From contig NZ_CP134771.1 of assembly GCF_031880315.1 (NCBI RefSeq), positions 3,808,501 to 3,872,500 of the forward strand: a DNA stretch of 64,000 nt, in the 5' to 3' direction. The position numbers and the translations under genes are program-made. Shown in pieces: positions 3,171 to 40,365 of this stretch. This DNA is from Pseudomonas baltica. GTDB lineage: Bacteria > Pseudomonadota > Gammaproteobacteria > Pseudomonadales > Pseudomonadaceae. Within the stretch, counting starts at the first letter, position 1, and every line of letters begins with the position of its first letter. The notes beneath the pieces are model-generated. The model did not search any database and was not told the DNA's origin. It saw only the letters and a program-made list of their open reading frames with translations.

Positions 3171-3327
3171 GTAGAGGAGTCTCAGTGGAATGACGACGCG
3201 ATCCTGAGGCTCGGTAACAAGGCTGACAACATCGAAAAAGCCGAAACCGCGACTTGCGCACAGTCTGGTAAACGATTGTTTTAATGATGAAACTTTGTTC
3301 GGATTGTGAAGTCTTTTACTCTTCACG

Positions 3328-3359
3328 AAGGCCTTTTGCATTTCGCAAAAGGCCTTTTT
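3328..3359. terminator. Hairpin between the glycine-zipper gene and fdhA
   Basis: A perfect 12-bp stem (3328-3339 paired with 3345-3356) has a 5-nt loop and a T-run on the plus strand just after it. It lies just past the stop of the molybdopterin oxidoreductase gene on the minus strand, where it would stop that transcript. The T-tract is better on the plus strand, so direction is uncertain. Confidence 0.55.
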
Positions 3360-3371
3360 CGTGTGCGCAGA

Positions 3372-10387: not shown

Positions 10388-10616
10388 GATGGTGCCCCTT
10401 TGGATGATGGAGATAAACCCGAAAGGTTCGGTCTCAAGGAGCTTACTGGGGGCTATATCTGCCCACACCTCTCAGAAGTGTCAGGTAGCGCGTCTGCGCT
10501 GATTCGTGTTACCAGCCTCGTGGGTAGCGTCAGGTTTGACTACATCCTCCGGCTGTCCCAAGCTCATCGGCTGGCGCGCACCGCGGCACGCCGGTTCAAC
10601 GTTGGAGTTTTCGACC

Positions 10617-11456: not shown

Positions 11457-11472
11457 ATCTATCGGTGTGCCT

Positions 11473-11555
11473 GCGGGCCTATTCGCGGGCTCCCCCGGGT
11501 GTATGGCTGAGCTGCGGCGTGCACTGTGGGAGCAAGGCTTGCCCGCGAAGAGGCC
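11473..11555. repeat. REP-like palindromic element
   Basis: A TATTCGCGGGCTCCC copy and a facing GGCTTGCCCGCGAAGAGG copy, separated by about 50 nt, lie between cysQ and the convergent thioesterase gene. They resemble Pseudomonas REP sequences. Confidence 0.55.
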
Positions 11556-11575
11556 CGTCGCTTCACCGCACTCGT

Positions 11576-12028
11576 TCAGCGGTGCAACACATACTGCCCG
11601 CTGAAGCGCACCGCATCCTCGTCGCTGCCCTCATTGCTGATCCGCGTCTGTAGCGTGATCCGCGCGCGGCCACGGCGCTGGTAGGTCGTGATAAACCGCT
11701 GCCACACCGCCGCCTCGGGCATTTCACAGTGGGCGATGCCAGCGCCGCGCACCGCCTGTGGATAACTGATCTGTCCTTCCTGAATGACGATATGGCCGTC
11801 TTCGATGCCGGCATCGCGCAAGCTCAAGTATAGCCATCCCCATCCCACCAGTACGGCGCCGCAGTACAGGCTGCCGCCGAACATGGTGTTTTTATGGTTG
11901 ACGTTAGGCTCCAGCGGCAGTCGCAATCGTAATGCGTGGGCCTCCCAGCTCAAGACCTGCATCTGCATGTCGGCGGTGAGCGGGATATCGTGGTGCAGCA
12001 CCTGCTGCAAGTGTTCGACAGGGTTCAT
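11576..12028 (-). CDS. Thioesterase-like protein (YiiD C-terminal / hotdog fold)
   Basis: The 150-residue protein has the NHKNTMFGGSLY stretch typical of the YiiD_C thioesterase-like hotdog family. The start at ATG-12028 has GGAAA 8 nt upstream and gives the normal length; the frame open to 12067 overlaps dctD. It follows dctD closely on the same strand. Substrate is unknown. Confidence 0.8.
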   Translation of the reverse strand: MNPVEHLQQVLHHDIPLTADMQMQVLSWEAHALRLRLPLEPNVNHKNTMFGGSLYCGAVLVGWGWLYLSLRDAGIEDGHIVIQEGQISYPQAVRGAGIAHCEMPEAAVWQRFITTYQRRGRARITLQTRISNEGSDEDAVRFSGQYVLHR

Positions 12029-12044
12029 CAACGGGTTTCCTGGC

Positions 12045-13433
12045 TCATGAGTCCGAGTCCTCGCCACTGGCGAAGGTCAGGCCGTGTTTGCGCAATTTGT
12101 CGTGCAGGGTCTTGCGGGGCAGGCCCAAGGCTTCGGCCAAGCTGCGCATCGAACTGTGGGGGCGGGCCATCTCGGCGGCGATCAGCGAGCGCTCGAAGTG
12201 TTCGACTTGCTCGCCCAGCCCGCCCTCGATAACGCTCGGGACACTGCCGGGCGGTTCGTTGACCGGTACGTCGAGTTCAAGCTCCAGTCCCAACGCGAAA
12301 CGCTCAGCAACGTTTTGCAGCTCCCGCACGTTGCCTGGCCAGCTGTGGCGCAACAACAACGCGCGCTGGCCGGGGCCCAGGGAATGCGGTAACAGGCCGT
12401 GGCGATCGCTGGCAGCATCGGCGTAATGCTGGAACAGCATCAATACATCTTCGCCGCGTTCACGCAGCGGCGGAATGCGCAGATTGGCGACGTTCAGGCG
12501 GTAGTAGAGGTCGGCGCGGAAGCGCCCTTGATCGGCAGCGTGGCGCAAGTCCTCCTTGGTAGCGGCGATCACGCGGATATCGAGGCGGATCTGCTGATTG
12601 CCACCCAGGCGCTCGACCACTCGCTCTTGCAGCAGCCGCAGCAGTTTGACCTGTACGTCGAGGCTCATGCTTTCGATTTCATCGAGGAACAAGGTGCCGC
12701 CATTGGCGAATTCGAACTTGCCGATACGGCGCTTCTGCGCGCCCGTGAACGCCCCAGGTTCGTGGCCGAACAGTTCACTCTCGACTACCGACTCGGCCAG
12801 CGCCCCGGCGTTGATTGCTACGAAAGGCCCGCCACGGCGATTCGACAGGTCGTGCAGGGCTCGCGCCACGACTTCCTTGCCGGCGCCGGTTTCGCCGAGG
12901 ATCAGCACGTCGGCCTTGGTCGCGGCCAGGGCGCCGATCTGCTCGCGCAAGCGCGTCATCGACGCCGACTGCCCCACCAGGCGCGTGCTCAGTGCCTGGC
13001 GATCACTCAGGGCCAGACGCAGGCTGCGATTGTCGAGCACCAGGCGGCGCAGGGCCAGGGCGCGCCGCACGCTGTCGAGCAGGGCATCGCTGGCGAAGGG
13101 TTTTTCCAGAAAGTCATAAGCGCCGGCACGCATGGCCTGCACGGCCAAGGGCACATCGCCATGGCCGGTGATCAGCAGCACGGGCTGCTCGGCATCCTGG
13201 GCGTGCAGTTGTTCGAGCAATTGCAAGCCATCGATACCCGGCATGCGGATATCGCTGACCACCACCCCCGGCCAGTCACGCTCGATACGTTCGGCGAGGC
13301 CGCGGGCGTCTGCCAGTGGCAGGATTTTCAGGCCGGCGAGGTCGAGGGTCTGGGTCAGGGCCTGACGCAGGTGTTTGTCGTCATCGATCAATACCACTTG
13401 GATCTGGCTGTCGATGATCGGCTCATGGCTCAT
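12045..13433 (-). CDS. dctD: Sigma-54-dependent response regulator DctD
   Basis: The 462-residue protein comprises a receiver domain (phospho-acceptor Asp in VVSDIRMPGIDG, Lys in EKPF), an AAA+ domain (Walker A GETGAGKE, sigma-54-contact loop GAFTGA, Walker B FLDEIES) and a Fis-type helix-turn-helix (LAEALGLPRKTLHDKL). It matches DctD, which activates C4-dicarboxylate transport genes with RpoN. It overlaps dctB by 4 nt and forms one operon with it. The dctA/dctPQM target is not in the window. Confidence 0.9.
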   Translation of the reverse strand: MSHEPIIDSQIQVVLIDDDKHLRQALTQTLDLAGLKILPLADARGLAERIERDWPGVVVSDIRMPGIDGLQLLEQLHAQDAEQPVLLITGHGDVPLAVQAMRAGAYDFLEKPFASDALLDSVRRALALRRLVLDNRSLRLALSDRQALSTRLVGQSASMTRLREQIGALAATKADVLILGETGAGKEVVARALHDLSNRRGGPFVAINAGALAESVVESELFGHEPGAFTGAQKRRIGKFEFANGGTLFLDEIESMSLDVQVKLLRLLQERVVERLGGNQQIRLDIRVIAATKEDLRHAADQGRFRADLYYRLNVANLRIPPLRERGEDVLMLFQHYADAASDRHGLLPHSLGPGQRALLLRHSWPGNVRELQNVAERFALGLELELDVPVNEPPGSVPSVIEGGLGEQVEHFERSLIAAEMARPHSSMRSLAEALGLPRKTLHDKLRKHGLTFASGEDSDS

Positions 13434-15244
13434 ACCGAGAGATCCTCTGGTGGTTGCAGATTGACGCCCGGTGCGCCCGCGCGCAGGCGCAGGGTCAGGA
13501 GGGCGCCGCCCTGGGGGTGATTGGCCAGGACCAGTTCGCCGCCCAGAGCGCCGATCAGGGTATCGCAGATCGCCAGCCCAAGGCCAAGGCCCTGGGTGCG
13601 GGTCTTGGTGGTGAAGAATGGCTCGCGCGCGCGCGCCAGGGCGACGCTGCTGAAGCCCGGGCCATTATCGCGAATGCTCAAGTTGATACCTTCGGCGGTC
13701 TGCTCGGCGCTGATCCACAGGCAGCGCGGGTTGGCTTTCTCGGTCAAGGCGTCGAGGGCGTTGGCCAGCAGGTTGCCGAGGATCTGCCGCAAGCGGGTTT
13801 CCCCGGCTTGTACCCAAAGTGTGGCGTCAGGCACATCGCGGATCAGTTCCACGGCCATGGCCCGACGGCGCTTGCCGAGCAGTGCCAGGGCATCATCGAG
13901 TGCCGGTTGCAGGGCCACGCTTTCCGGCGCGTGGTGGTCGCGGCGGGCGAATGCGCGCAAGTGGGCGATGATCGAGGCCATGCGCCCGGTCAGTTCGTTG
14001 ATCAGCTTGAGGTTGCCGCGGGCATCGTCGGTACGTTGATGATCGAGCAGCACTTCGGCGTTCTCGGCGTAGCTGCGAATGGCGGCCAGCGGCTGATTGA
14101 GCTCGTGGCTGATGCTGGCCGACATGGTCCCGAGTACCGACAGCTTGCCGGCCTGGACGAGTTCGTCCTGGGCCTGCACGAGGTTTTGCTGGGCCTCTTC
14201 GCGGATCAGTACTTCCTGTTTCAGTCGGCTGTTGAGGCCTTCCAGGGCGCTGGTCCGTTCGATCACGCGCTTCTCCAGCTCGTGCCGGGCCTTGGTGTCG
14301 AAGTTGATGCGGTCCAGGTAGTGACGGCGGCGTTGCATCATCAGGCCCAACAGTAGCATCAGCACCAGCAAGGTAGCGCCACCGACGGCGACCACCGTGC
14401 GGACAGGGCGATCGATCAGGGTGCGGGGCGCAAGGATACTCACGTCCCAACCGGTTTCGCCGATGCTTTGGGTCTGGGTGACCCAGGCGCCTGTGTCGAG
14501 GCGCAGCGGTTGCGGGTCGCGGGTCGGGTAGGGCTGCACTTCGGCGATGCTCTGGCGCTCGCTATCGCTGAGCGCCCTGGTGGCCTTGAACCGCCAGTCG
14601 GGCCGCGAAGTGAGGATGACCACGCCGTTGTTGTCGGTCAGCAGCAGTTGCTCGGGGGTGTTGCCCCAGAGCGTTTCGGTGTGGTCCAGGTCGACCTTGA
14701 CCACGAACACGCCGATCACCTGGTTGCCTTCTCGCACTGGCGCGGCGAAGAAATAGCCGCGTTTGGCCGAGGTGGTGCCCAGCCCGAAAAATCGCCCCAT
14801 CTGCCCGGCGAGGGCATCTCGGAAATACGGGCGGAAAGCGAAATTGCGCGCGATGAAGCTGTCCTTGTGATCCCAGTTGGACGCCGCCAGGGTGAGGCCT
14901 TTGGTATCCATGAGGTACATCACTTCGGCACCGGTCTGGCGCGCGATGGCCTTGAGCAAATGGTTGGCGTTGTCGACGGTGGCCGCCGAGGCAGGGGTCG
15001 CCAGGGTCTGGCGCAGGGCGGGCAGGTCGCCGAGGATCTGCGGCAGCGTTTCGTAGCGATGCAGGGTGCCCAGCAGGTTGGCGACGTAGAGATCGAGGGT
15101 CTGGCGATTCTGGCTGGCGAGCTCGCTGCCATAGTACCGCTCGGCCAGGCGTTGCAACGGCCACAGCAAGGGCGCGAGGCAGATCGCCAGGATGGCGAGG
15201 CTGCGCCAGCGAGGCCGGCGCGGGAGAATAGGGGTCTTGTTCAT
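13430..15244 (-). CDS. dctB: C4-dicarboxylate sensor histidine kinase DctB
   Basis: In this 604-residue kinase two transmembrane segments (about residues 14-32 and 270-290) bracket a periplasmic dCache-type sensor. A short coiled linker follows, then an H-box (SHELNQPLAAIRSYAEN) and an ATPase domain (DNGPGF, GLGLAICDTL). It pairs with DctD, joined by a 4-nt overlap. An alternative start at 15289 would begin inside a short tandem repeat, so 15244 is preferred, although no strong Shine-Dalgarno is seen. Confidence 0.9.
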   Translation of the reverse strand: MNKTPILPRRPRWRSLAILAICLAPLLWPLQRLAERYYGSELASQNRQTLDLYVANLLGTLHRYETLPQILGDLPALRQTLATPASAATVDNANHLLKAIARQTGAEVMYLMDTKGLTLAASNWDHKDSFIARNFAFRPYFRDALAGQMGRFFGLGTTSAKRGYFFAAPVREGNQVIGVFVVKVDLDHTETLWGNTPEQLLLTDNNGVVILTSRPDWRFKATRALSDSERQSIAEVQPYPTRDPQPLRLDTGAWVTQTQSIGETGWDVSILAPRTLIDRPVRTVVAVGGATLLVLMLLLGLMMQRRRHYLDRINFDTKARHELEKRVIERTSALEGLNSRLKQEVLIREEAQQNLVQAQDELVQAGKLSVLGTMSASISHELNQPLAAIRSYAENAEVLLDHQRTDDARGNLKLINELTGRMASIIAHLRAFARRDHHAPESVALQPALDDALALLGKRRRAMAVELIRDVPDATLWVQAGETRLRQILGNLLANALDALTEKANPRCLWISAEQTAEGINLSIRDNGPGFSSVALARAREPFFTTKTRTQGLGLGLAICDTLIGALGGELVLANHPQGGALLTLRLRAGAPGVNLQPPEDLSV

Positions 15245-27825: not shown

Positions 27826-28134
27826 TTACAGCACCCAGCGCATTTCATCTACCGCCTTGCCGAGCTTCTCGCGCAAGGGTTCAAGCAGGCAGCGCAGGCA
27901 GTCTGCATCCAGCTTGCGATCGTACGCGGCTTCCATCATTTGAATGACCAGGGTCAGGGCGCCGTTGACGTCGGCGGTGGTCTGGATGGCGTTGTCCAGT
28001 GTTTGCAGGTCGGTGTCCAAGGCGGCGAGCTGGTGCAGGATTGGGCCCAGGGCTTCGTGGGGCACGGAGTTGGCGGCGGTGGCGTAGGTGGAGAGTTGGG
28101 TGTGGATGTTTTTTGGGGTTGATAGGGCGGTCAT
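27826..28134 (-). CDS. Hypothetical helical protein
   Basis: The 102-residue all-helical protein has a heptad-like N-terminal half (LAALDTDLQTLDNAI) and a basic/acidic C-terminal helix with a CLRCLL pair. AAGGAC sits 7 nt before ATG-28134. I do not recognise it. It lies near the end of the core segment before the accessory island. Confidence 0.6.
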   Translation of the reverse strand: MTALSTPKNIHTQLSTYATAANSVPHEALGPILHQLAALDTDLQTLDNAIQTTADVNGALTLVIQMMEAAYDRKLDADCLRCLLEPLREKLGKAVDEMRWVL

Positions 28135-28358
28135 GGTGCTTGTCCTTGGGAGTGGGCCATCGGACGTAGAGAGCTGAGCCTCGCGCCGATAACCAGATCA
28201 ACACAATATAGTGGCGACCAAGGGTATAAGACTCTGATTAAACGCATCCTAAGAGTTACTTAGGGTTTATTGGTTCTGGATGGACGGCTGATGGAGTGGT
28301 TACGACGGGACTGTCAGTTTTTTTGTGTTCGGGCATAACATGAGCAAGAGGTGCATGT

Positions 28359-28529
28359 ATGCCAACCAAAAAGAAACCCGAACTACGAAAGCTACCGAAA
28401 ATCCCTGCAGAGCTGCTTGAGCAGTTCGCCGACGGGATGATGACCGAGGACGATGAAGCCTTGATCTCGACAGTGCGCGAGCGGCTGGCCAATCCCCAGC
28501 GGGTCAAGGTTTCGCTAGATCACCTATAG
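28359..28529 (+). CDS. Short hypothetical protein
   Basis: This 56-residue frame starts at ATG-28359 with AAGAGG upstream. It has a lysine-rich N-terminus (MPTKKKPELRKLPKIP) followed by an acidic helix. No family is recognised. It is the last gene-like frame before the composition drops to AT-rich accessory DNA. Confidence 0.5.
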   Translation: MPTKKKPELRKLPKIPAELLEQFADGMMTEDDEALISTVRERLANPQRVKVSLDHL

Positions 28530-29448
28530 CTTCGATGATGTGCGAGCGTTAGAGGGGTGGCACTAATTAGGAGATACCGTGCGCCAGCAGGTGGAGGACA
28601 GGAGCTCCATGGTCGTCAATGGAATTCCAGGGGGGCACCAAGAGTCGAAAAAGTTATTAACTATATGATCCGTAAGACTTTTATTTATATGTGATGATCC
28701 TCCTATCTCTAAAACTATCCCGGCACCCGGGCTTGCTAAGCATTGATCGAGAGGGGAAAGCCAGAGTGGGACCGATTGCCATCAGTGCGTGGCTGTCTCT
28801 CATGCTTTCCTGAGTCTGGGGGCTCGTTCTCCAACTACGGTAAGCGACAACCAACGACTAAAGGCTACCGTTGCTAGACGGCCGCTATCGGCCAATACCT
28901 GCCATTGGTTAAGAGATGTGTTAGCCGAACATTTAGCCGTGATTTGCCCAGAGGCTACTTTTTAGTTTTGTTTCGGCTATGCCATAGGACGACTGCGGGG
29001 GGGCGCAATACTGGAGAGCACTGCGAGCTGCCAAGGGGCAGGGTACTCATCGAACTTCGGCCACCACTCATTGAGCGCCGGTATCAAGCGGTCCCCATTG
29101 GTCTGGGGGCTACATCAGGGCCAGTGGCACAGAGGCCAAGACTCAGTCTGCACACTGGCCTCACCCCCAGCTAACTGCAGCAAAAGAACGGAATGTTCAC
29201 GGAGCGTGACGAGCTTGAGATGGAACAATGGGTGAGCGAGGCGCTCCAGAACCATCTGAGGAGCAACCTGTTGGTACCCAAGGCCATTTTCAGCCAGCAC
29301 GAAATTGCTAGGTGAAGAGCCGCCCAGCGTCGCGACACCTGCCACTGTTTATGGTGATTAGCTCAATGCGAGCCTATTCTAAGTAAGTAACCATTCCTTG
29401 CAGGCTTCTGTGCTATAACAGCGATATGAATCTGGAAGCCTGATCGTC
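28530..29448. other. Gene-free left margin of the accessory island
   Basis: No frame here has a convincing start, ribosome site and composition. AT content rises sharply from about 28,655. At 28634-28649 the sequence GGCACCAAGAGTCGAA matches 15 of 16 bases of the tRNA-Thr 3' segment at the other island end, and may be the worn left attachment site. Confidence 0.45.
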
Positions 29449-30681
29449 ATGCCAAATAGTGAAACGCAAAACTCCGCAAAGCCAGGAACGACAAAGAAGA
29501 ACAGAACAAATGATTTGTGTATGGCCTATCTTCAAACTAAGTGGCGGACTATATTAACCACGAGATTTGCCTATTTTTATGATAAGTCTCCCCAAAGTGG
29601 TCAGCGCATGGAGCTGATAATGGACTGTATGATAAAAGGTCTAGAGTCCCTCTTCTTGAGGTTTTCGAACTTAAAGGATACTCAGTTCAATACGCAAGTC
29701 ATGCTGCCTGATTCAGGTGCATATTCCCAGCGAATGGCGGAGATGCTGTTTTACTACAGGCTTTTGGGGATGGGCTTCGGCGACATTAAAAGCAAGGATT
29801 CTGGGCCAGACTTTGTTGCCTCGAAAAATGGTGAGACTTTTTGTTTTGAAGTGGTTACGCCAACCCCGCAAGATTCTATCAGAGAGCTTATTGGGCGAAG
29901 CAAGTTAGCGCCTGAGGAGCGAGATTTAGTGTTTCGTGAGCGTTTGTTGTCAGTCACATCAGCTATCAAAGACAAATTGGAGAAATTCGAAGCTCATAAG
30001 TCGGCCGGACACGTACCAGAAGGTGCCCATTACATAATCGTTGTCAATGATTCACTGCTGCTACCCTATGACCAGCCCTGGCATGGAGTGCAAGCTGAGC
30101 TTTGCTTTGGTGAGAGTACTCTACCGATTGCCGTGGATGCGACGCTTGGGTCTGGGGACATCGATTTCACTGATATTCTCGGTGAAGAACCTTCGGAGGA
30201 TGATGGCGACGAGTTTCAAAACCTCGTAATGAGAAGCAATTACGGAGTTTCTATCAATAGAGGGCCGCCGGTTACTCCAGGGGACTTTTTGTTACGTGTG
30301 AAAATCAGGAAGGAAATACCAAGCAGAAAGTGCACCGGCACCGTCACGGTTGATATAGCTGAGTCTGTAGGTGTAGCGGGGATTTATCAGATAACATTGC
30401 GGGAGGACCTGATGTTCTACCATTCTTTTAAGTCTGGTCAGGCCATAATGCCCGCTTCCGCACTGATCAGCTCGGTGAAAAATAAACAGCTGGTCAGAAA
30501 TTCAATATTTTTCACATCAACATATGCGAGGGATGAGGCTCTAGTTCAACCTCTTATGTCTCCTGCGCGTATGTTAGGTTACGAACCACACGATTTTAAC
30601 AATCAGGCTATTTATGATAAATTTTTCAAGCCTGTTTTGGAAGGTGGTGAGTTTTATAGGTCACCTGAATCTCAAGGTTAG
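29449..30681 (+). CDS. Hypothetical protein with restriction-nuclease-like motif
   Basis: The 410-residue protein is AT-rich compared with the core. Around residues 122-142 it shows GPDFVASKNGETFCFEVVTP, which has the spacing of a PD-(D/E)XK core (Asp in PDF, Glu in FEV), with Val where Lys is usual. The rest is unrecognised: an N-terminal helical part, an acidic insert near residue 255 (GEEPSEDDGDEF) and beta-rich C-terminal segments. It could be a divergent or inactive nuclease, or a sensor with that fold. The next gene on the same strand also has a nuclease-like motif, with 109 bp between them. Function is not known. Confidence 0.7.
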   Translation: MPNSETQNSAKPGTTKKNRTNDLCMAYLQTKWRTILTTRFAYFYDKSPQSGQRMELIMDCMIKGLESLFLRFSNLKDTQFNTQVMLPDSGAYSQRMAEMLFYYRLLGMGFGDIKSKDSGPDFVASKNGETFCFEVVTPTPQDSIRELIGRSKLAPEERDLVFRERLLSVTSAIKDKLEKFEAHKSAGHVPEGAHYIIVVNDSLLLPYDQPWHGVQAELCFGESTLPIAVDATLGSGDIDFTDILGEEPSEDDGDEFQNLVMRSNYGVSINRGPPVTPGDFLLRVKIRKEIPSRKCTGTVTVDIAESVGVAGIYQITLREDLMFYHSFKSGQAIMPASALISSVKNKQLVRNSIFFTSTYARDEALVQPLMSPARMLGYEPHDFNNQAIYDKFFKPVLEGGEFYRSPESQG

Positions 30682-30790
30682 TCGGCAATTGAAGCTCACG
30701 GTAGCGTTGATGTTGTATGAAACACGGCTGCAAGTTGTGACAATTGCATCCCCCTAACCAATTACTTGCACTCACGAATGAGATTACATT

Positions 30791-31507
30791 ATGCAGATGC
30801 ATATAGCCCGACGCATATCCGAAGCCATTGGTAGTTGGCTGCACATGGAATTTTGCTGTTATAGAGCTGGATTGCTTTCCGAAAGTTCGTTGAAGGCCGC
30901 AGTGGGCCAGGTTCTTAGCTCATTCCCAATCCTAGTGAAAGGTGAGCGCGTTCATGCAGATTTTCCTCACGCACTCTTGAATCCTACTGCTCAATCCGGC
31001 CGTAAGAGAGAGCTCGACTTTGCACTTGTTCTTGCGGGTAGGGGGCTGCCAAAACGAAATGCCCAAATTGCCGTAGAAGCAAAGTGGGCAGGTTCTTCGC
31101 ATTGCACTCCATCGAATATCATTCAGGATTTTTTGCGACTCTCTGAAATCAAACGAGGAGATCCCGATACTGTTTGTATTTTCGTACTAGCAGGATCGCA
31201 TCTGCAGGTATCTAAACTCCTGAGTGGGATGCCCTTTGCTACGTCGGGCAACACAAATACCGGGGTAGGCTCATCCGGTAACGAGAGAAGACTGAAACCT
31301 AGTCATACAAACATGGATCATCGAAATTGCTTCTCTGAACCAATTAAGAAATTGTCCTCTGCAGGCTTTACTATTCCGGAGTCGTTTGTTTGCCAATCAC
31401 ACGGAATACACCCGCTTCAAACAGCTGGCGGTACCGTGGATTTTCAAGCGATAGCCTGGGAAATAAAGTCTGTTTCTGCGGCCAATCTCAATATCAAAGT
31501 TTGGTAG
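30791..31507 (+). CDS. Putative PD-(D/E)XK nuclease-fold protein
   Basis: The 238-residue protein has RELDFALV followed about 20 residues later by IAVEAKWAG, the Asp ... Glu-x-Lys pattern of PD-(D/E)XK nucleases, at about residues 75-103. The N-terminus (ARRISEAIGSWLHMEFCCYRAG) is helical. The C-terminal third is unrecognised. It lies on the same strand as the preceding nuclease-like gene, and together they resemble a two-gene cargo module. Enzyme activity is inferred only from the motif. Confidence 0.7.
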   Translation: MQMHIARRISEAIGSWLHMEFCCYRAGLLSESSLKAAVGQVLSSFPILVKGERVHADFPHALLNPTAQSGRKRELDFALVLAGRGLPKRNAQIAVEAKWAGSSHCTPSNIIQDFLRLSEIKRGDPDTVCIFVLAGSHLQVSKLLSGMPFATSGNTNTGVGSSGNERRLKPSHTNMDHRNCFSEPIKKLSSAGFTIPESFVCQSHGIHPLQTAGGTVDFQAIAWEIKSVSAANLNIKVW

Positions 31508-31672
31508 AAAACGGCTTACCATTCGTTCAAGTCGACCCGCTAAAGCGGGCGGCTGAATGCCAACGTCAGGAAATGAGCACTTTTGGCCGTTTTTTGTCTG
31601 TGGTGATCGGCCGAAAACGGCCAGAAGCGGCCGCCTGACGAAGACAGCTTTCCACTCGAAGCGGAATATCAC

Positions 31673-32734
31673 CTAGGGATTACTGAAGTTTTTGCCGAAA
31701 TAATCTATGACCTCACTGGCCTGCGTATCCTGGCGGAAACGTTTCTGCCCTTCGAAGTCAGTCGAGGGCAGCATGTGGATTATCTGATGATCCGCATAGA
31801 GGGACATAACATCATGAGGATTCAACCCTCCGGCGCGCTGCCCCGTAAGCGTGTTAGTCACCTCAATGGCAGCACCAATCATAACGTCCGCCAGCTGTAC
31901 TGCAGGACTGGTCCTCGAGTCGACTTGTGTCACTGACTGGAGCTTGAGTGGAAAGGTGAGGCTCGCGATCTCTGATTGGCGAAATGTGACCTCGTCCTTG
32001 TGATTAATAAAGCGCAGCAGCAAGTCATGGTAAGTGAGCAGGTTCTTGGACTGATCATGCTCAACCAAGTAGGGGCCATCAGCCATGACTTCCATCCGGC
32101 TTATCAGCGATTGCAACACCACAAAAGCGGCGTCAGTGGTGACACCTGATGTGGCGATCGCTTGAAGGCATTCCGGCGCGGCATACTGTGCCAAAGGCCC
32201 CAAAGCTTCCGGTAGTTCCTGCCAGCGTGTGGCCCGAGCAGCAGCAGCCACGAGGTCGGTAAGTGCTACAGGGCTTTTTTCCTTTACTGCTCGCTGGAAA
32301 CAAACAAGCAACTGCTCAAAGGCTGCCTCTCCAAGAAGGGGGGGACCCGCCACATAAAGCAGCGACCCAAGCGCGTAGTTCTGCCCATCCTTATAAAAGT
32401 CGCATCCGCGCTCGTGGTAGTACGGTTCAACTGCGTAATCCAGAAACATCAGCAGCAGCAGAAAGCGCTTATCACAGACGTAGGTAACGCACTTGTGATG
32501 GTTCAGGACATCACGCATTAACGCCAGAAGCCGTGGGTGATTGGCTGGCCGGCGTGACAGAGCCCGGTACTTGAGCTCTTCCGCTTGTAGCTTAGGAAAG
32601 TGCTCTTGAATCAAGCGTCTGGCCTGATTATCATCAATGGCAATGGCTGCGGCCCCTTGAAACCTCTGCTCGATATTTAGCAGGTCATATCCGGTATAGC
32701 CACTTTCGTCGACGCTGAAGCTCTCCATATGCAA
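31673..32734 (-). CDS. DUF3800 domain protein
   Basis: The 353-residue protein begins with SFSVDESGYTGYDLL and ends its core with SPAVQLADVMIGAA, the two conserved acidic stretches of DUF3800, a predicted RNase H-like fold often found on mobile elements and near defence genes. The middle (about residues 80-250) is helical and unrecognised. It follows the membrane/coiled-coil gene by 25 bp on the same strand, so the two probably form one operon. Catalytic activity is unproven. Confidence 0.75.
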   Translation of the reverse strand: MHMESFSVDESGYTGYDLLNIEQRFQGAAAIAIDDNQARRLIQEHFPKLQAEELKYRALSRRPANHPRLLALMRDVLNHHKCVTYVCDKRFLLLLMFLDYAVEPYYHERGCDFYKDGQNYALGSLLYVAGPPLLGEAAFEQLLVCFQRAVKEKSPVALTDLVAAAARATRWQELPEALGPLAQYAAPECLQAIATSGVTTDAAFVVLQSLISRMEVMADGPYLVEHDQSKNLLTYHDLLLRFINHKDEVTFRQSEIASLTFPLKLQSVTQVDSRTSPAVQLADVMIGAAIEVTNTLTGQRAGGLNPHDVMSLYADHQIIHMLPSTDFEGQKRFRQDTQASEVIDYFGKNFSNP

Positions 32735-32759
32735 CTCCCCGAGGTCGTAGACAGCACGA

Positions 32760-33896
32760 TCACCGTTGCGATTGTTTTTTGCTAGTTTTTGAATTGGTCA
32801 GCTTGGTAGCAGGCGCATTCGAGGTCAATGACTTTCCCAATAGCGAATTTAGCGATTTCAGCTCCGCCTGGAGATTCTGAGTCGCTTGAATTTGCGTGCT
32901 CAGGAGCGCCTGTTGTGTCGCCGATTGCTTCTCCCAGTAGGCCTGGCGTTCGTTAGCCTGCCGCAGAGTCGTATCGGCATCTACGTAGCCGCTTTGCTGC
33001 TGGTAAGCAGCAATCCCAATTGACGTGATAATGCTTGTGATAACGGCCCATTTCGTCCAACGCAGGCTGCTCGCAGCGCTTCGTAGAGAGAGCTCGGATT
33101 GCTCCTTGTTGCTTTCTTGTTGGGCCATCCATTGTGGTATGGCTTCAAGGACCAGCGTCGAATACATCGAAGCGGTATGCGCCTGAACCTCCCCCATGTG
33201 TGCGGCCAGCTGGTTAAGGACGTCTACGGCCTTTTCTGAGGCCCTGGCCGCCCGTGCGTCGTTCGTATTGGAGAAATCCAATTTCGGTAAAATAATCTCA
33301 CTTTTCGTGTAAGGAGGGCGGTCCTGATATGGCGATTTGAGGCTTTCCATGCCGTTTGCCACATGTGCAACTGACGGATCTCTATAAATATTCGAAACGA
33401 GTGATTTCCACTTTTGGTTCGACTGATCGATCGCTGTTACCGAAGCGGTCAGGGATTCCAAGGTGCTAGGTTGAAGGAACGAAAGGCTGTTTCGAAACTG
33501 ATCGAAAATTTTCTTGCTCGCCTGATCAAGGTCAGCGTATTGGTCAAGGACACCTCGACCCAAACCAGCGATTAAATCTTCGGTTGCTGGATACTCGGCC
33601 TCCTCAAGGGCCACGGTCGCCAGTGCATCTAAGTCAGATGTTGTTAGCATCGAAAAAACTTCATCGTTGAGCCCATCCCATCCACCAGGATCCTGCAAGG
33701 TGGACGTCGTAGCTCGTATCGCTTGTAGGCCGATCTCACGCTCGTTAGCTTCTTCGAAAGCGCCCGATTCGACTATTGTTTTGTAATCCTTGTAGACCAG
33801 ATGGCGTATGTACAGAGGACCCAAAGATGTGGATACTTCGCGCTTGGAACTAGCTCTGATGAGGTCTTTTAAGCTCGGTTTTTTCTTGTCAGTCAT
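32760..33896 (-). CDS. Membrane-anchored coiled-coil hypothetical protein
   Basis: In this 378-residue protein the N-terminal 270 residues are mostly helical and polar. One transmembrane helix near residues 278-298 (WAVITSIITSIGIAAY) is followed by a Gln/Ala-rich coiled coil and a basic Lys/Ser/Thr tail. No family is recognised. It is the first gene of a two-gene unit with the DUF3800 protein. A membrane partner beside a nuclease-like protein is a layout seen in several phage-defence and toxin systems, but that role is a guess here. Confidence 0.65.
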   Translation of the reverse strand: MTDKKKPSLKDLIRASSKREVSTSLGPLYIRHLVYKDYKTIVESGAFEEANEREIGLQAIRATTSTLQDPGGWDGLNDEVFSMLTTSDLDALATVALEEAEYPATEDLIAGLGRGVLDQYADLDQASKKIFDQFRNSLSFLQPSTLESLTASVTAIDQSNQKWKSLVSNIYRDPSVAHVANGMESLKSPYQDRPPYTKSEIILPKLDFSNTNDARAARASEKAVDVLNQLAAHMGEVQAHTASMYSTLVLEAIPQWMAQQESNKEQSELSLRSAASSLRWTKWAVITSIITSIGIAAYQQQSGYVDADTTLRQANERQAYWEKQSATQQALLSTQIQATQNLQAELKSLNSLLGKSLTSNAPATKLTNSKTSKKQSQR

Positions 33897-34344
33897 CGGG
33901 TCGCGGCCATGTGATCGTTAAAATATCATTATCGAAATCTTACACGACTCATCGTGACTCCATCCCCCAAATCGGGCGCAACTTTCGGAATCGGACGCAG
34001 GCCTGCCGAGCTAGACCTTCCGTAAAAACGGGAGTTTTAGTCCAGTACTTGGCTCCAATCGAGCTTAAAAAAACTCTACACCGCCTTGCCGGAAACTGCC
34101 GGAGGCACAAAATTGTGCTGCGGTGGCGCGCGGCAATAGCCGTGCGAGCAACGCATGTTGTCCTTTACTGGCAGACGGGCCGAGTAGCTGATTCTGAACG
34201 GCAGTTGCTGGCCGATTGCAGTCGGTCGTGATTATCGGGATCACATCCCCTTCAGAGCTTGAAAAGCCATGACGTTCCTAGACGTCGAGCTAGCAGTCGG
34301 GCGGTCAGCACGTAGTAGTACTGCGTTGCCTGACTGTGTTCGCT
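33897..34344. other. Intergenic stretch without a supported gene
   Basis: Open frames are short and lack ribosome sites. It should contain the promoter of the 33896-31673 unit at its left end. Short GC-rich inverted segments occur near 34190-34230. Nothing else is recognised. Confidence 0.4.
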
Positions 34345-34527
34345 CTAGCGATTCTCAAGAAACCACACCACATGCTTCTTTTGCCAAGTCCAAGGGTTTT
34401 CCCGCTGCCAGCGCTTTGCGATTGCAACCTGAATGATTTTTGCCTGGCGCACATGACGTTGCCGCGTTGCGTGCGATCCAATCAGCACGCCAGCCAAAAA
34501 CAGTTCCATATCGAATGACTTACTCAC
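34345..34527 (-). CDS. Small hypothetical protein coupled to the recombinase-like gene
   Basis: The 60-residue basic protein starts at GTG-34527, which overlaps the upstream stop by 4 nt (GTGA) and has GGAGG 6 nt before it. The sequence has a Trp- and Arg-rich C-terminal part (AKRWQRENPWTWQKKHVVWF). The tight coupling to the integrase-domain gene suggests a partner, for instance a directionality factor, but no family is recognised. Confidence 0.6.
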   Translation of the reverse strand: MSKSFDMELFLAGVLIGSHATRQRHVRQAKIIQVAIAKRWQRENPWTWQKKHVVWFLENR

Positions 34528-35504
34528 GTCCGTCCTCCGATGTAGGCAGCGACCACATCGATCCGACCGTGCCCTAGCTCATAGCTGACTTGCTTCCGCG
34601 CTTCATGATCGAGGCGCGGATTCATCTGGCAACATTCACCACCGTTGATAGGTGCGCGATGTTGGGTAATTTCCTCGTAGCGCTCACACGCATACGCGGC
34701 TCGTAGCTCATGGAAGCCTTTGAGGTTGTGTGCATGAATGGTGTCGCGCGCAGGGCGGACGATTTCCTGAAGAATGCTCAAGTAGCTTTCGTTCGAAGCA
34801 ATGAGGTTGCGGCTACCAGCAGGCGATACCTGCTTCGCAAACTCAAGCGCGGCACGAATATGGTCGTCCACCGTAATCCAGCGATGTGCTGATGCACCGG
34901 CGCGGCCGCCTTTGGTGCCGTCCTGAACGTTGATCTTGGCTAAGCTTTCAGCCTCGCGGCTCAACCGGGGCAGGTCAGCCAAGATGGCCTCACGCAAACG
35001 CATACCGGTGGCTCGTGCCAGCTGCACGATAGCCGCAGCCCTTAGATGGTGACGGCTGCAAAGCGCCTCGACTATTCGCTGTATGTGTTCGCGATCCTGG
35101 CCCTGTGGCACGGATTGACGAACTCCGGTTCGTTGCATACCCAACGCCTTGCTCGGACTTGGCACTTTCACATACTGATCACCGCGAAGCGCAGCCATTG
35201 TCCTATTAACGCTGGATAGCCGGTTTTGCGCAGTGCTGATAGCTAGGTGGCCGTGCTCAACCAGGCCGCGAAGGTATGCCACATAGTTTGACAACACCTC
35301 GCGGTCAATCTGCCGCGCATCATTGATCCCGGGTCCCGCTTCGGACCGGCACCACTTCACGAAGTCCCGCCACCGATCACTGTTCGCCTTGACCGTACCG
35401 TAGTGCCCGCCGCCGAACATATCTTTCAGCGCTTGCGGTCCTGCGTAGCTCAATTGTCTGCCGTAGCCGAAATTACGACCATCGCGTCCACCCACTAATG
35501 CCAT
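34524..35504 (-). CDS. Integrase domain-containing protein (tyrosine recombinase-like)
   Basis: The 326-residue protein has an N-terminal SAM-like core-binding part (SDRWRDFVKWCRSE) and a C-terminal tyrosine-recombinase catalytic part: the first Arg in ARATGMRLREA, then HELRAAYA, then GHGRIDVVAAYIGG with a candidate nucleophilic Tyr. It resembles the integrase-domain proteins of integrative elements and is distinct from the P4-type integrase 1 kb away. ATG-35504 has AGGAGG at 8 nt; GTG-35513 is an alternative. Whether it recombines DNA is unknown. Confidence 0.75.
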   Translation of the reverse strand: MALVGGRDGRNFGYGRQLSYAGPQALKDMFGGGHYGTVKANSDRWRDFVKWCRSEAGPGINDARQIDREVLSNYVAYLRGLVEHGHLAISTAQNRLSSVNRTMAALRGDQYVKVPSPSKALGMQRTGVRQSVPQGQDREHIQRIVEALCSRHHLRAAAIVQLARATGMRLREAILADLPRLSREAESLAKINVQDGTKGGRAGASAHRWITVDDHIRAALEFAKQVSPAGSRNLIASNESYLSILQEIVRPARDTIHAHNLKGFHELRAAYACERYEEITQHRAPINGGECCQMNPRLDHEARKQVSYELGHGRIDVVAAYIGGRT

Positions 35505-35926
35505 GTCGCACACCTCCTACCCGTTTCTCCAGTTCTGCCCCACGTCATCCCGCCAAGAATGTTGAGTGTTATCAGGGATCAAGGCCCCTGCGGCCTGTGG
35601 GGATGTCCTTAACGCTGGACTGGCAGCTCCTTACGACCGGGAGCAAGGGCATCTCAGGATCTAGCCCCCTGAGCACCGTTACCGGTGGGCGGGTGGAGGC
35701 TGCATTGACTGACGAAACCAGCGCCGCGAGATCCTGAGTCGGGTGAAGGCAGCTATGCGGTGACCGGGGCATGCCTCGCTGTCAGCCAGGTGCAGTCCAA
35801 TCCATGGTCTGCGGCACCATCATCTACATCGCTGTTGCTGGTGACTTCGGTGTTTGTCACGCCGATTGTCACGAGGAGGATTGCGGCAAAGCCACGTTTT
35901 ATATGGGCTGCAGCGGTGGTTTGAGC

Positions 35927-35957
35927 GCCCGTCTCTTTCCTGGAGAAAGAGACGGGC
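35927..35957. repeat. Perfect 13-bp inverted repeat
   Basis: GCCCGTCTCTTTC (35927-35939) pairs with GAAAGAGACGGGC (35945-35957) around a 5-nt loop. No T-run follows on either strand, so it is not an ordinary terminator. Confidence 0.8.
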
Positions 35958-36192
35958 AAAGGGTTGGCGCACACGAAATGGCCAAGCGGGTAGGTTGCTG
36001 CTGGGCAGAAGGGTAGGGTGGTTGCCGCAGTGGCAACGATATTGAGTAGGCATCCATCACATGGGTAGTGACCGTACGAGCTACCGGACGCGAATCGTAC
36101 TTGGGATGAACCGCCTCACGAGGGGCGTGACCTTTCAGGTTTCTGGCCACATTTTGCTGCCTCGGCAGCACTTGCAATGCCTGGTTTACGCC

Positions 36193-36282
36193 TGTGGACA
36201 AAAGACGTCAAGCGGCGAGATTTCAGACAATTAGCGCCTGTGGATAAAATTATCCTCCGGTGGACAATGGTGGTTTTCCACA
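36193..36282. promoter_or_regulatory. Cluster of DnaA-box-like sites, candidate origin
   Basis: TGTGGACAA (36193-36201), TGTGGATAA (36239-36247, a perfect DnaA box), GGTGGACAA (36259-36267) and, in the opposite sense, TTTTCCACA (36274-36282) fall within 90 bp of non-coding DNA. Such clustering is typical of DnaA-dependent origins. Replication by this island is inferred and unshown. Confidence 0.5.
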
Positions 36283-36318
36283 GACGCTCAGTTGTGCCAG
36301 CCGTTTTTTTCAACGTTC

Positions 36319-36363
36319 GGTCCTTTTAAACGGGGCGGCTTTGCAGCCCCGTTTAAAAGGACC
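36319..36363. repeat. Perfect 18-bp inverted repeat
   Basis: An 18-bp perfect stem (36319-36336 with 36346-36363, containing TCCTTTTAAACGGGGC) has a 9-nt loop and lies 69 bp past the integrase stop. It has no flanking T-run. It could stop transcription or be a protein or nickase site. Confidence 0.85.
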
Positions 36364-36431
36364 CGCGCGGAGGAGCTTCATGCGGTGCGGCGTGTAACTA
36401 CACAGCGGGTTTGCAGCGGTGGGGCGGCGGG

Positions 36432-37751
36432 CTACTCGGCCCACCTGGCACTGCGAATGCGCGTGACGTTCTCACCCGCCTGCTTGGCAAATTCATGCGG
36501 CGTCACATGATCCCCGCGGTTTGCCTCCAGAAACCGACTCCACCAAGTCATGATCATCCGGCGCTCCTCAAGAAACTCGGCCTTGTGGATATACGCGGCG
36601 CGCACGTTGTTGCGTTCCTTGTGGCTCATCTGCCGCTCGATTGCCGTCTCTGACCACAACCCGGACTCGATCAGTGCGCTACACGCCATGGCGCGAAAGC
36701 CGTGGCCGCAGATGTCCGCCCTGGTGTCATAGCCCATCGTCCTCAATGCAGCATTCACCGTGTTTTCGGACATCGGTTTCCACGGCTTGGCGTCTCCGGC
36801 AAACACCAGGTCGAATTTGCCGGTGATCTTGTGGATCTGCTCCAGCAGGGTCACCGCGTGCGGGGATAAGGGTACGAGGTGAATGTCTCCGGCCATTTTT
36901 GTACCCCGTGTGGAAAAGGGTACGCCGTCCAACGCGGGGCGGGTGTCGGGTATCTCCCAGATACCGCGCTTGAGGTCAAACTCGTTCCAGCGAGCGAAGC
37001 GCAATTCACTGGAGCGCACGAACACGTGCAAGGAGAGCATCACCGTCAGCCGCGTGAGGGCCCTGCCGCGATAGGTGTCTATCAGTTCCAGCAGTTCTGG
37101 CAGGCGAGCCAGTGGCAGTGCGGGCCTGTGTTTCACGCGGGGGGCCTTTATTGACCCTTCGAGATCGTGCGCTGGGTTCTGGATGATCAGCCGGAGCCGT
37201 TTGGCTTCCCGCATGATGCTCTGGAGGTAGTTTTGTACCCTTAAGGCAACGTCGATCGTGCCGCGCTTCTTGATGGCCTCAAGCGGCGTCATCAAGTCAT
37301 GGGTATCCAGTTCGACGATGGCTCGGGCGCCAATCAAGGGGAAGACGTGAGTCTTGAGCCGGCTCAGTACGGTTTTGGAGTGCCCGGGCGCCCACTTGGC
37401 AGACATTTCCTTGTGCCAGTCCAACGCTACTTCTTCGAATGTGCGGCCGTTGATAGCAGCCGTGGTCTTGGCGTCACGCTTTGACTCAATGGGATCAATG
37501 CCATTCGCCAGCTGCCTTTTCGCCTCGAGCCGTTTCCGTCGTGCATCGGCGAGGGTTATCACCGGGTAGTTGCCGAAAGAGGTCAGGCCCTCCCGCCCGT
37601 CTGGCTTTACATAGCGAAGACGCCAGCCTTTGCGACCATTCGGTTGAACGAGGAGGTAGAGCCCGTCGCCATCGAAGAGCTTGTAGGCGCGGTCTGTAGG
37701 CTTTGCCGAGCGGCAAGCAGTGTCGGTAAGAGGTGCGGTTGTACGCGACAT
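36432..37751 (-). CDS. P4-type tyrosine integrase of the island
   Basis: The 439-residue integrase has an N-terminal arm-binding domain (LTDTACRSAKPTDRAYKLFD, DUF4102 type), a central core-binding domain, and a catalytic domain with Arg in RSSELRFARW, HGFR and a terminal Tyr in RAAYIHK. ATG-37751 has GGGAG 7 nt upstream; the longer frame would run into the tRNA fragment. It sits 163 bp from the 3' tRNA-Thr segment in the same orientation, the canonical layout for elements integrated at a tRNA. Confidence 0.92.
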   Translation of the reverse strand: MSRTTAPLTDTACRSAKPTDRAYKLFDGDGLYLLVQPNGRKGWRLRYVKPDGREGLTSFGNYPVITLADARRKRLEAKRQLANGIDPIESKRDAKTTAAINGRTFEEVALDWHKEMSAKWAPGHSKTVLSRLKTHVFPLIGARAIVELDTHDLMTPLEAIKKRGTIDVALRVQNYLQSIMREAKRLRLIIQNPAHDLEGSIKAPRVKHRPALPLARLPELLELIDTYRGRALTRLTVMLSLHVFVRSSELRFARWNEFDLKRGIWEIPDTRPALDGVPFSTRGTKMAGDIHLVPLSPHAVTLLEQIHKITGKFDLVFAGDAKPWKPMSENTVNAALRTMGYDTRADICGHGFRAMACSALIESGLWSETAIERQMSHKERNNVRAAYIHKAEFLEERRMIMTWWSRFLEANRGDHVTPHEFAKQAGENVTRIRSARWAE

Positions 37752-37844
37752 AAGGGTACTCCCTATTATCGAATTGAAACCTACCCTAATCTTTACCCTT
37801 AAAAGCGCTGGCTGCCACCGGAATCCGACGGAACGCCAAAACGA

Positions 37845-37870
37845 AAAAACCCGCCAGAAGGCGGGTTTTT
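37845..37870. terminator. Bidirectional terminator next to the tRNA-Thr segment
   Basis: AAAAACCCGCC and GGCGGGTTTTT pair around AGAA. On the minus strand it lies about 45 nt past the tRNA CCA end and is the likely tRNA terminator. Confidence 0.8.
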
Positions 37871-37913
37871 CAAGGGTTCCAGAGATTTTGAAAGCCTTCT
37901 CTGGAACCTCAAA

Positions 37914-37958
37914 TGGTGCCGGCACCAGGAGTCGAACCCGGGACCTACTGATTACAAG
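37914..37958 (-). other. Attachment site: 3' 45 nt of tRNA-Thr(TGT)
   Basis: Read on the minus strand, the segment runs from the anticodon loop (CTTGTAATCAGTAGG) through the T-arm (GGGTTCGACTCC) to the encoded CCA. The 5' half of the tRNA is missing; element sequence abuts at the anticodon loop. The segment separates two integrase genes and is the shared att core of the island to its left and the prophage to its right. An intact copy should lie beyond the far prophage end. Confidence 0.85.
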
Positions 37959-37985
37959 GAACCTCTGTTTTCCTTATAAATCAGT
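37947..37985. repeat. Imperfect inverted repeat at the tRNA/prophage joint
   Basis: ACTGATTACAAGGAA (37947-37961) and TTCCTTATAAATCAGT (37970-37985) are near-perfect inverses around an 8-nt spacer, CCTCTGTT. One arm belongs to the tRNA segment and the other to element DNA. The shape fits tyrosine-integrase core-binding arms around an overlap. Confidence 0.65.
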
Positions 37986-38022
37986 CAGTTGTAAATTTTT
38001 CTGTTACGTGCAAAAACGGCGA

Positions 38023-38043
38023 AGCCCGCTGTTTATGCGGGCT
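38023..38043 (-). terminator. Weak terminator after prophage integrase
   Basis: AGCCCGC and GCGGGCT pair around a 7-nt loop; on the minus strand a T5 follows 5 nt later. It lies just past the integrase stop. Confidence 0.45.
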
Positions 38044-38070
38044 CCGATGTGCTTGTTACGCAAGGGATTT

Positions 38071-39216
38071 TCAATCGGCAGAAGGATTCACCAGCGGAAC
38101 GCTCAGGTCGTAAATATCCATCATTGACTCATCCCGGTGGCCGCTGGCCTCTTGCTTGTCTGCCCTGGTGCCAGTGGTGTCAGTGATCCCGCGGCGCTTC
38201 AGATCATGCAGGCCAAACCGTTGCTCCTGGTCAATTGTTCCGTCTCCAATGGCGGAAATCATGAAACGTTGCCAAGCACTATCCAGGCTGGATTTACGGA
38301 GCGCGCCTCCGTGGCTTGCGACGATGATGTAGCGACGATCGGCCCTGATGTGGATAGCGGTTTTCTTCTTGGTCCAGATCTCAGCGCGATAGGCCTTTGC
38401 CCCGTCCCATGCTGCCCGCAACCGCGGCGTCCAACGCACCACGTTGTCCCGGCTGCCCTTCCTTCGGTTTGTCATCACGCCTTCATCCAGCTCGTGTGCG
38501 TCTGTGAGGGTAATGACCTCGATGCCTCGCAGTCGGCACAAGTACGCAAGCTCCATCACGTAGCTTAAGTACTCCGGGCACCCGCCTGGCTCGTTTCTGG
38601 CCAGGCGACCAAATGCTCGGGCCCGATCGATAAGAGCGTCCATCACCAGGTGCGTTGGCAGCCTGCGGCGCTTACGTTCCACGGGCGCCTCGATCCCTAA
38701 AGCCGGATTTACATCGACGAAGCCTCTGTTTCTGCCCCACTGCATAACTCGCCGTAGATATCGAAGCGCGTGTGCAGCTTTTGAGGGTGTGCCGTCATCG
38801 GCGAGCCTATCGACGATCCTTTGCACCAGGGCGGGCGTGAATTTCTTGACGGTTAGGTCCCCAAGTTTGCCCAGTTTCGTGGGCAACTCGAGAAGGACGT
38901 CCCGTGAATAGCAATAATCCTCGTGAGTCTTCGGGGCCAGGGTTTTGTATTTGGCACTCCCGTGGAACTCTTTGCAAAGGTACCGCAGGGTCCCACGGTC
39001 GACGTTCGAGCAGTCGTCCATGATCTGGTGTAGATCCGCCAGCGACACCTCGGCTGGAGCGATGTTTCGCCTGCGCTGTTTGCCCGTCTCGTCATAGTGC
39101 AACGTGTACCAGACCCCTGATCCACGCTGGTCGAAGTAAACGGCCGCAGGGAGAGCGGCCTGATCGATGTGGGGGGGAATATGCGGATTATGCTTCCGCT
39201 TCCGTGCTTTCCTCAT
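38071..39216 (-). CDS. int: Prophage tyrosine integrase
   Basis: The 381-residue phage integrase has the first catalytic Arg in LCRLRGIEVITL, then HDLKRRGITD, then SGHRDESMMDIYD with the Tyr nucleophile. It points toward the tRNA-Thr att segment, 113 bp away. Its start overlaps the stop of the DUF4224 gene by 4 nt. It differs clearly from the P4-type integrase on the other side of the att segment. Confidence 0.92.
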   Translation of the reverse strand: MRKARKRKHNPHIPPHIDQAALPAAVYFDQRGSGVWYTLHYDETGKQRRRNIAPAEVSLADLHQIMDDCSNVDRGTLRYLCKEFHGSAKYKTLAPKTHEDYCYSRDVLLELPTKLGKLGDLTVKKFTPALVQRIVDRLADDGTPSKAAHALRYLRRVMQWGRNRGFVDVNPALGIEAPVERKRRRLPTHLVMDALIDRARAFGRLARNEPGGCPEYLSYVMELAYLCRLRGIEVITLTDAHELDEGVMTNRRKGSRDNVVRWTPRLRAAWDGAKAYRAEIWTKKKTAIHIRADRRYIIVASHGGALRKSSLDSAWQRFMISAIGDGTIDQEQRFGLHDLKRRGITDTTGTRADKQEASGHRDESMMDIYDLSVPLVNPSAD

Positions 39217-39487: not shown

Positions 39488-40129
39488 TCAGAATATGGTC
39501 ATGGAATTGCTGGGTTTATTCCTGGCGGCGTTGGAAAGGGGCATCCAGTGGGTGGCCTCCGGGTCGTACCAAAAACACCAGCCAATTTGGTCGTCATAAA
39601 TCCATTCTGACAGTGCCACCTCCCCCCGGTAGGAGGTGATCAGGTAGTCACCTTTTCGATCTTCTGGCCGGCGATCAGCAACACTGATCCATTCGGCTAG
39701 GGCGGCCGATGCTGATTCAGGCGGATGAATCGCGCACGGCCAGCGTAGCGACCCGTCCCCAGAAGGACAGGAGCACGCAGTGTTGAGTGATGCAAGCTGC
39801 CCTTGTAGCGCATCGATTTGACACTGTAGAACCTCTGCAACTGCCCTTTCCTCGCCGCTTAGACTTGCCAACTGCCGCCGTTGCAAGTCAACGTGCTTGA
39901 GCATCAATACGCGATGATCGGTTTTTACTGTGGCGAGTTCTTGGACAATGGACTCGTCTGGGGTCTTGGCCCGCGTGTTCCACCAGTCATATGCACGTTG
40001 CTTTGTCTGGAAGTAGTCCATTTCCACACCGCATTCATTACAGAGGATGCGGTGATAGTTGTGGATGCTCCACATTGAATGGCCTGCTTTGCCATTGCAA
40101 AACGGGCATGACTTTAGTTCGTCACTCAT
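39488..40129 (-). CDS. Lar-like zinc-ribbon and DUF551 protein
   Basis: In this 213-residue protein the N-terminus is a zinc ribbon of the Lar restriction-alleviation type (SCPFCNGKAG, then LCNECG). The C-terminus carries a DUF551 pattern (WISVADRRPEDRKGDYLITS, ending THWMPL). It starts with a 4-nt overlap to the upstream gene. Lar-type proteins modulate host type I restriction; that role is inferred. Confidence 0.75.
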   Translation of the reverse strand: MSDELKSCPFCNGKAGHSMWSIHNYHRILCNECGVEMDYFQTKQRAYDWWNTRAKTPDESIVQELATVKTDHRVLMLKHVDLQRRQLASLSGEERAVAEVLQCQIDALQGQLASLNTACSCPSGDGSLRWPCAIHPPESASAALAEWISVADRRPEDRKGDYLITSYRGEVALSEWIYDDQIGWCFWYDPEATHWMPLSNAARNKPSNSMTIF

Positions 40130-40365
40130 CTTTTGCACCCCGGAGCGGGCAATGCTTCACGCTCAGATTCGATGAACCCGGTGGTCTTGACGCCGGCGCC
40201 GACCGCATTGATGAACATAACCTCTACTTTGGCTGAGTCGACTAGGACTTTGCCAACGTCTGCAATCGCTTTAGCACGGTCGATATCCATCGGCTTCTCA
40301 GGGTCCTGCAGTGCTTCCAAGGTCGCGAACAAATGGTCGCGAAGATCGGTCATTTTATTTTTCAT
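40126..40365 (-). CDS. Small phage protein, hypothetical
   Basis: The 79-residue helical protein (MTDLRDHLFATLEALQD, then DRAKAIADVGKVLVDSAKVE) is of a type common in Pseudomonas and Burkholderia prophage early regions. ATG-40365 has GAGG close by; an internal Met at 40353 is possible. It overlaps both neighbours by a few bases, so it is part of the early operon. Confidence 0.65.
   Translation of the reverse strand: MKNKMTDLRDHLFATLEALQDPEKPMDIDRAKAIADVGKVLVDSAKVEVMFINAVGAGVKTTGFIESEREALPAPGCKR

Follow-up and report, generated by a model that had tools for sequence, protein, structure and literature searches.

We analysed a stretch of 64,000 nucleotides of the Pseudomonas baltica genome (hereafter the window, positions 3808501-3872500 of a single contig of 6.63 Mb), and concentrate on four adjacent genes near its center, here called A, B, C and D. 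An initial annotation had proposed these as a candidate defence or conflict system. A and B, on the plus strand, point towards the minus-strand genes D and C, such that the block consists of two convergent pairs; the four open reading frames and their layout are as that annotation gave them:

Gene A, 29449-30681, plus strand, 410 amino acids (aa); a helical N-terminal part (residues 21-85), a PD-(D/E)XK-like core (about 91-200) and a further alpha/beta part.
Gene B, 30791-31507, plus strand, 238 aa; E31, D76 and E96-x-K98 form a PD-(D/E)XK signature in an alignment of 45 sequences.
Gene C, 31673-32734, minus strand, 353 aa from the called TTG start; a DUF3800 protein with conserved DESG (D9, E10) and Q280xxD283 motifs.
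Gene D, 32760-33896, minus strand, 378 aa; a domain at about 18-122, a helical stalk, a probable membrane helix at about 280-299 and a C-terminal helix.

The GC contents (A 0.453, B 0.474, C 0.533, D 0.506, as against 0.622 in window positions 1-24000) confirm that all four genes are AT-rich, and both the foreign composition and the location in a mobile island are upheld. The ratio of nonsynonymous to synonymous substitution rates lies between 0.07 and 0.37 in all eight comparisons made, which involve A, B and C, and these three genes have therefore been kept by selection. Scans for promoters and terminators gave no excess over shuffled sequences.

The neighbourhoods of relatives elsewhere show that the four genes are not persistently linked. 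Counts were taken at loci with readable flanks, leaving out duplicates (L002-L004, L023-L026 and L028), an Escherichia coli remnant (L021) and two weak, stop-bearing matches (L029 and L030); the neighbours of C at L041 were judged from annotation, and flank lengths are uneven, with one side of L014, L018 and L045 shorter than 3 kb. B lies beside A at one of 14 other A loci, five of which hold only distant relatives with about 30-33% identity, and A lies beside B at one of three other B loci. D is beside C at none of 11 other C loci, and C is beside D at none of the four other D loci read, among which the contexts of the closest D relatives do not figure. On these counts the four genes do not move together as a single system, and they look like separate, independently moving anti-phage genes. 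The initial annotation had taken them for a single system while naming independence in such a comparison as the outcome that would speak against it, and independence is what we find.

A and B occur together only in the window and in a close P. graminis copy (L008), which share a 2.7-kb segment at 94.7%, and we thus reject A-B as an obligate pair. Immediately after A and B the P. graminis locus carries (at 8643-15115) LmuA, LmuC and LmuB of a Lamassu system, an FRG protein (PDC-S15) and an Aga-like/DpnII-MboI restriction endonuclease, and it contains neither C nor D. Defence-type neighbours are therefore present around relatives, in keeping with the defence association first proposed for the block.

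The PD-(D/E)XK-like motifs previously pointed out in A and B are present, as GPDF (D121) and FEV (E134) in A and as ELD (D76) and VEAK (E96, K98) in B, and alignments give each protein a nuclease-like signature. In an alignment of A with 34 relatives selected from 78 found, E98, D121 and E134 are invariant in all 35 sequences and K126 is nearly so. The structural model of A is of good quality and contains an alpha-beta-beta-beta-alpha-beta core with the conserved acidic residues, and its matches, among those listed, are mainly PD-(D/E)XK proteins, with the homing endonuclease I-Ssp6803I among the weak Foldseek matches; the core is predicted from this model to have the PD-(D/E)XK fold. The lysine of motif III (D/E-x-K) is absent, the sequence being E134-V-V instead, and K126 might take its place. 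All 35 aligned sequences also match the PADLOC model of PD-T7-1, for which protection against T-even phages and T7 is described, with homologues in a defence island or prophage according to a figure legend (PMC9519451), and which a review lists among PD(D/E)XK nucleases (PMC10952713). Residues 89-148 of A align with positions 160-219 of that model (E 5e-4), and the best family member reaches E 3.4e-7. Our verdict from these matches is that A is probably a distant relative of this tested defence nuclease, although the match spans 60 of 452 model positions and A is without the motif III lysine. A is thus not wholly undescribed, its core matching the model of a tested anti-phage protein. Neither A nor B has a Pfam or NCBIfam name. 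At the two E. coli loci read that hold a whole A the gene adjoins type I restriction and DarTG genes (darT being marked as frameshifted in one). In 15 of the 20 E. coli records listed A is reduced to a 223-base remnant; in the one read (L021, 8001-8223) it too adjoins genes for type I restriction and DarTG.

A search for homologues of B gave 139 proteins, the best 120 of which were listed and are mostly unnamed. In an alignment of B with 44 relatives selected from these 120, D76, E96 and K98 are invariant in all 45 sequences and E31 is conserved in at least 90%, which together make up the D...E-x-K arrangement with an upstream glutamate. Only one of the 45 touches a PD-(D/E)XK family in Pfam (PDDEXK_11, E 0.042), and B is best regarded, from its conserved residues, as a candidate nuclease family that is unnamed. 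That A and B might be related nucleases was considered and rejected, a profile comparison giving a probability of 0.3% and no kinship. Among 348 genomes of the genus, and again among 321 genomes of the class, only B's own genome has a match, and plasmid and phage records have none; two viral contigs carry B, in one case immediately behind an integrase-like gene and in the other amid structural-looking genes (as judged by eye). Searches of the A, B, C and D sequences against solved structures returned nothing convincing.

The identification of C as a DUF3800 protein is borne out, with a score of 21.6 bits against the Pfam family (PF12686, cut-off 21) that is just sufficient, and a match to phrog_12991 at E 2e-75. 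D9 and E10 of the DESG motif, Q280 and D283 are invariant in all 11 aligned C sequences; most of the relatives start at the ATG at 32728, which is the likely start rather than the called TTG. DUF3800 proteins are described as RNase H-fold nucleases that accompany certain CRISPR effectors of types V and VI (PMC10910872, PMC12669027). C is like these in keeping the DESG and QxxD motifs but unlike them in sitting under D, with no CRISPR effector recognised beside it in the window, and searches for DUF3800-linked RNA found none, whether across the window at gathering score or within 28000-38200 at E <=1.

Matches to C are common in plasmids, occurring in 234 of 72,556 records, 206 of these 234 being typed as conjugative. 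D is absent from all six C plasmid loci read, and named abortive-infection or restriction genes are near C on three of them (AbiV and a restriction endonuclease; AbiEii and an Abi protein; Shedu and an Abi protein). Matches to C are present in three of 95 genomes of the genus and order, including its own, which also has a distant second copy. At three of the 11 other C loci (L005, L006 and L017) the C relative is accompanied by an SMC_N ATPase gene, that of L017 having been assigned through its 95.5% identity to the L005 ATPase. Because the L006 ATPase is 27.6% identical to that of L005 and the gene order is swapped, the DUF3800-ATPase pairing has been seen twice independently. The ATPases at these loci are SMC-type proteins of 916-958 aa with weak LmuB-like PADLOC matches, encoded on either side of the DUF3800 gene. 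From this arrangement the DUF3800 and SMC-type ATPase genes are a candidate two-gene system, resembling Lamassu in having an SMC-type ATPase beside a nuclease gene, but differing in that neither LmuA nor LmuC is recognised beside these ATPases; the C gene in the window has no such ATPase.

D is the unusual protein among the four, in an island that we otherwise judge to be mixed and ordinary in structure. In its AlphaFold2 model, which shows long helices at low confidence, the predicted local distance difference test score (pLDDT) averages 72-88 by block for residues 21-120. When the model was compared with solved structures, the phage tail assembly chaperones YqbN and HK97 gp13 were the only matches confined to the N-terminus among the 50 listed, and tail assembly chaperones made up six of the 50 listed from a viral structure library (best probability 0.94, TM 0.54). 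The N-terminus of D is thus tentatively predicted to have the fold of a tail assembly chaperone (HK97 gp13, YqbN), and D as a whole may resemble such a phage tail-building protein with a membrane anchor added. It departs from the chaperones in its stalk and probable membrane helix, and in lying outside a tail operon; it is not placed between tail tube and tape-measure genes but adjoins C and a recombinase gene. Residues 1-122 gave two chance-level matches in phage records, and no relatives of D were found in such records. The earlier description of D as a membrane protein stands insofar as there is a probable helix at about 280-299, but this is weak in D's own copy, with a best 19-residue hydropathy of 1.11; hydropathy at the site is at least 1.6 in seven of 13 aligned rows, and in four of the 13 the most hydrophobic stretch is elsewhere. 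The architecture of N-terminal domain, stalk, hydrophobic segment and C-terminal helix is kept in relatives of 22-80% identity. One copy elsewhere is broken (L059), and one relative lies directly beside integrase-like genes (L056, 9702-12797), apparently at the edge of a prophage (by eye). D immediately precedes C, both being transcribed in the same direction, with 25 bases from D's stop to the called C start and GGGGAG just before that start, and D and C may be a functional operon.

The flanks of the block carry the following features:

34524-35513, minus strand, tyrosine recombinase (Integrase_1, Pfam).
36432-37925, minus strand, integrase with Arm-DNA-bind_3 and Phage_integrase domains (Pfam; NCBIfam PRK09692 below cut-off).
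37913-37958, 46 bases that duplicate the 3' part of tRNA-Thr(TGT), matching exactly the tRNA-Thr of L005 and that of the own genome outside the window; probable attachment site.
28892-29448, segment upstream of A, common to P. graminis (L008) and Phytobacter (L009) by blastn.

Three tyrosine-recombinase-like genes are located to the right of D (34524-39216), that at 38071-39216 by sub-cut-off matches only, such that the claimed bounding by integrases is shown on this side only; on the left no recombinase was seen by eye in the open reading frames, which were not scanned for domains. The 46-base copy overlaps the called start of the second integrase gene, and an intact tRNA-Thr with the same 46 bases, confirmed by ARAGORN, is located some 37.5 kb to the right, beyond the window. 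In another genome of this genus (G008), 3.7 kb separate a C relative with an ATPase gene from an intact tRNA-Thr(TGT), and one contig of that genome carries three copies of the 46 bases; from this, tRNA-Thr(TGT) looks like an integration hotspot used more than once. An empty site was not found, and in the longest-matching relatives the similarity on the left stops near 27600. About 560 bases 5' of A are common to distant hosts (L009, 9440-10000), blastn similarity beginning at 28880 in L008 and at 28892 in L009. By this similarity A seems to carry some of its flanking DNA along when it moves, the segment 28892-29448 being part of the moving cassette; the minus strand of L009 at 9440-10000 resembles the decayed end of a regulator (by eye).

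Other features of the window include genes at 38071-64000 that read by eye, with no scan, as a P2-like prophage with an integrase-like gene, probably ending at the intact tRNA-Thr. A protein with Lar restriction-alleviation and DUF551 domains is encoded at 39488-40138 (minus strand), an Rfam radC RNA motif (RF01754) lies between two island recombinase genes at 36050-36182 (minus strand, 44.3 bits against 40), and the Pseudomonas small RNA P34 (RF02405) is at 3070-3422 (plus strand).

We favor, at somewhat better than even confidence, the explanation that the four genes are defence-island cargo at a tRNA-Thr hotspot, comprising independently moving A and B nucleases, a portable C, and a membrane protein D that binds a phage tail protein; the role in phage defence, the tape-measure target and the nuclease activities are what we infer. 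A and B would each be single-protein PD-(D/E)XK nucleases, most likely cutting phage nucleic acid either directly or once activated, and would stand side by side through having been brought by one cassette. C would be a portable DUF3800 (RNase H-fold) nuclease that occurs by itself or beside differing partners. D is probably a membrane protein, and its N-terminal domain would copy the chaperone fold; most likely it binds, at the inner membrane, one of the infecting phage's tail proteins, above all the tape-measure protein, and this binding would block DNA entry or tail assembly; C could be its co-acting nuclease, or D could act by itself. Tail assembly chaperones are reported to coat the tape-measure protein during tail assembly, and inhibition by Tab is linked to that protein (PMC10884400); Tai is reported to block tail assembly (PMC11364771), and SNIPE is described as sitting in the membrane, where it would meet the tape-measure protein, and as having a nuclease that cuts incoming DNA (PMC13190303). 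By analogy D could capture the tape-measure protein in the manner of these three. Tab and Tai are small proteins that mobile elements carry as cargo and that arrest tail assembly, but neither a membrane anchor nor a chaperone-like domain is part of their published descriptions as far as these sources go, the comparison with D being by description only. Searches of open-licence papers found no report of a defence membrane protein with a chaperone-like domain. Several observations qualify such a role for D: the overall pLDDT is a weak 57, comparison with six HK97-type proteins (and thus with HK97-type families only) gave an hhalign probability of 1% and no profile kinship, and the adjacency to C was seen in its own genome only.

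The latter bears most on the proposal that D and C are a two-gene immune pair, with D sensing or capturing a phage tail protein at the membrane, C as nuclease effector, and A and B independent. The position of D just upstream of C argues for it, as do the ATPase genes beside C relatives, two of them independent occurrences, which suggest that C may accept partners; however, with D missing from all 11 other C loci and C from all four other D loci read, we consider it unlikely. A more specific form, in which the two divide the membrane and nuclease roles of SNIPE, would have a membrane-tethered chaperone mimic grip the incoming tape-measure protein and bring C to the phage nucleic acid, C being swappable and elsewhere found with an SMC-type ATPase. 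In SNIPE, however, DUF4041 and a GIY-YIG nuclease are described within a single protein, and neither of these domains is detected in D or C (Pfam, E <=1); placing a nuclease at the injection site draws on the gene layout of one genome, which weakens it; we regard this as a long shot. The broader idea of one defence or conflict system, in which nucleases A and B act with C and D as a membrane partner pair, has in its favor the tight packing, the low GC in common and the retention of A with B in P. graminis, but the convergent pairs, the absence of B from 13 of 14 other A loci and of D from all 11 other C loci, and the P. graminis locus without C or D argue otherwise; largely refuted by the neighbourhood counts, it is very improbable.

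Two further explanations forgo phage defence, and we hold both to be quite improbable. D and its neighbours could be remnants of a prophage or island in decay, with D a tail chaperone that became joined to a membrane segment by accident, which would account for the chaperone-like predicted fold, the relative beside an integrase-like gene and the broken copy; this sits poorly with an architecture kept across such divergent relatives and with the lack of D relatives in phage records. Alternatively, A and B might serve the mobile element itself, in homing-like fashion or in conflict between elements, as the common flanking DNA that moves with A and the weak match to I-Ssp6803I would suggest, but the defence-type neighbours in several hosts and the PD-T7-1 match of all 35 aligned A sequences point away from this.

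On the preferred explanation, of separate cargo genes gathered at a hotspot, A and B add nuclease-like families that lack database names, and the changing partners of C would illustrate the mix-and-match of defence effectors. Earlier work already connects the tape-measure protein with Tab (PMC10884400) and, during injection, with SNIPE (PMC13190303); if D is a true membrane-anchored copy of a chaperone, a bacterial island would have turned a phage assembly factor into bait for that protein.
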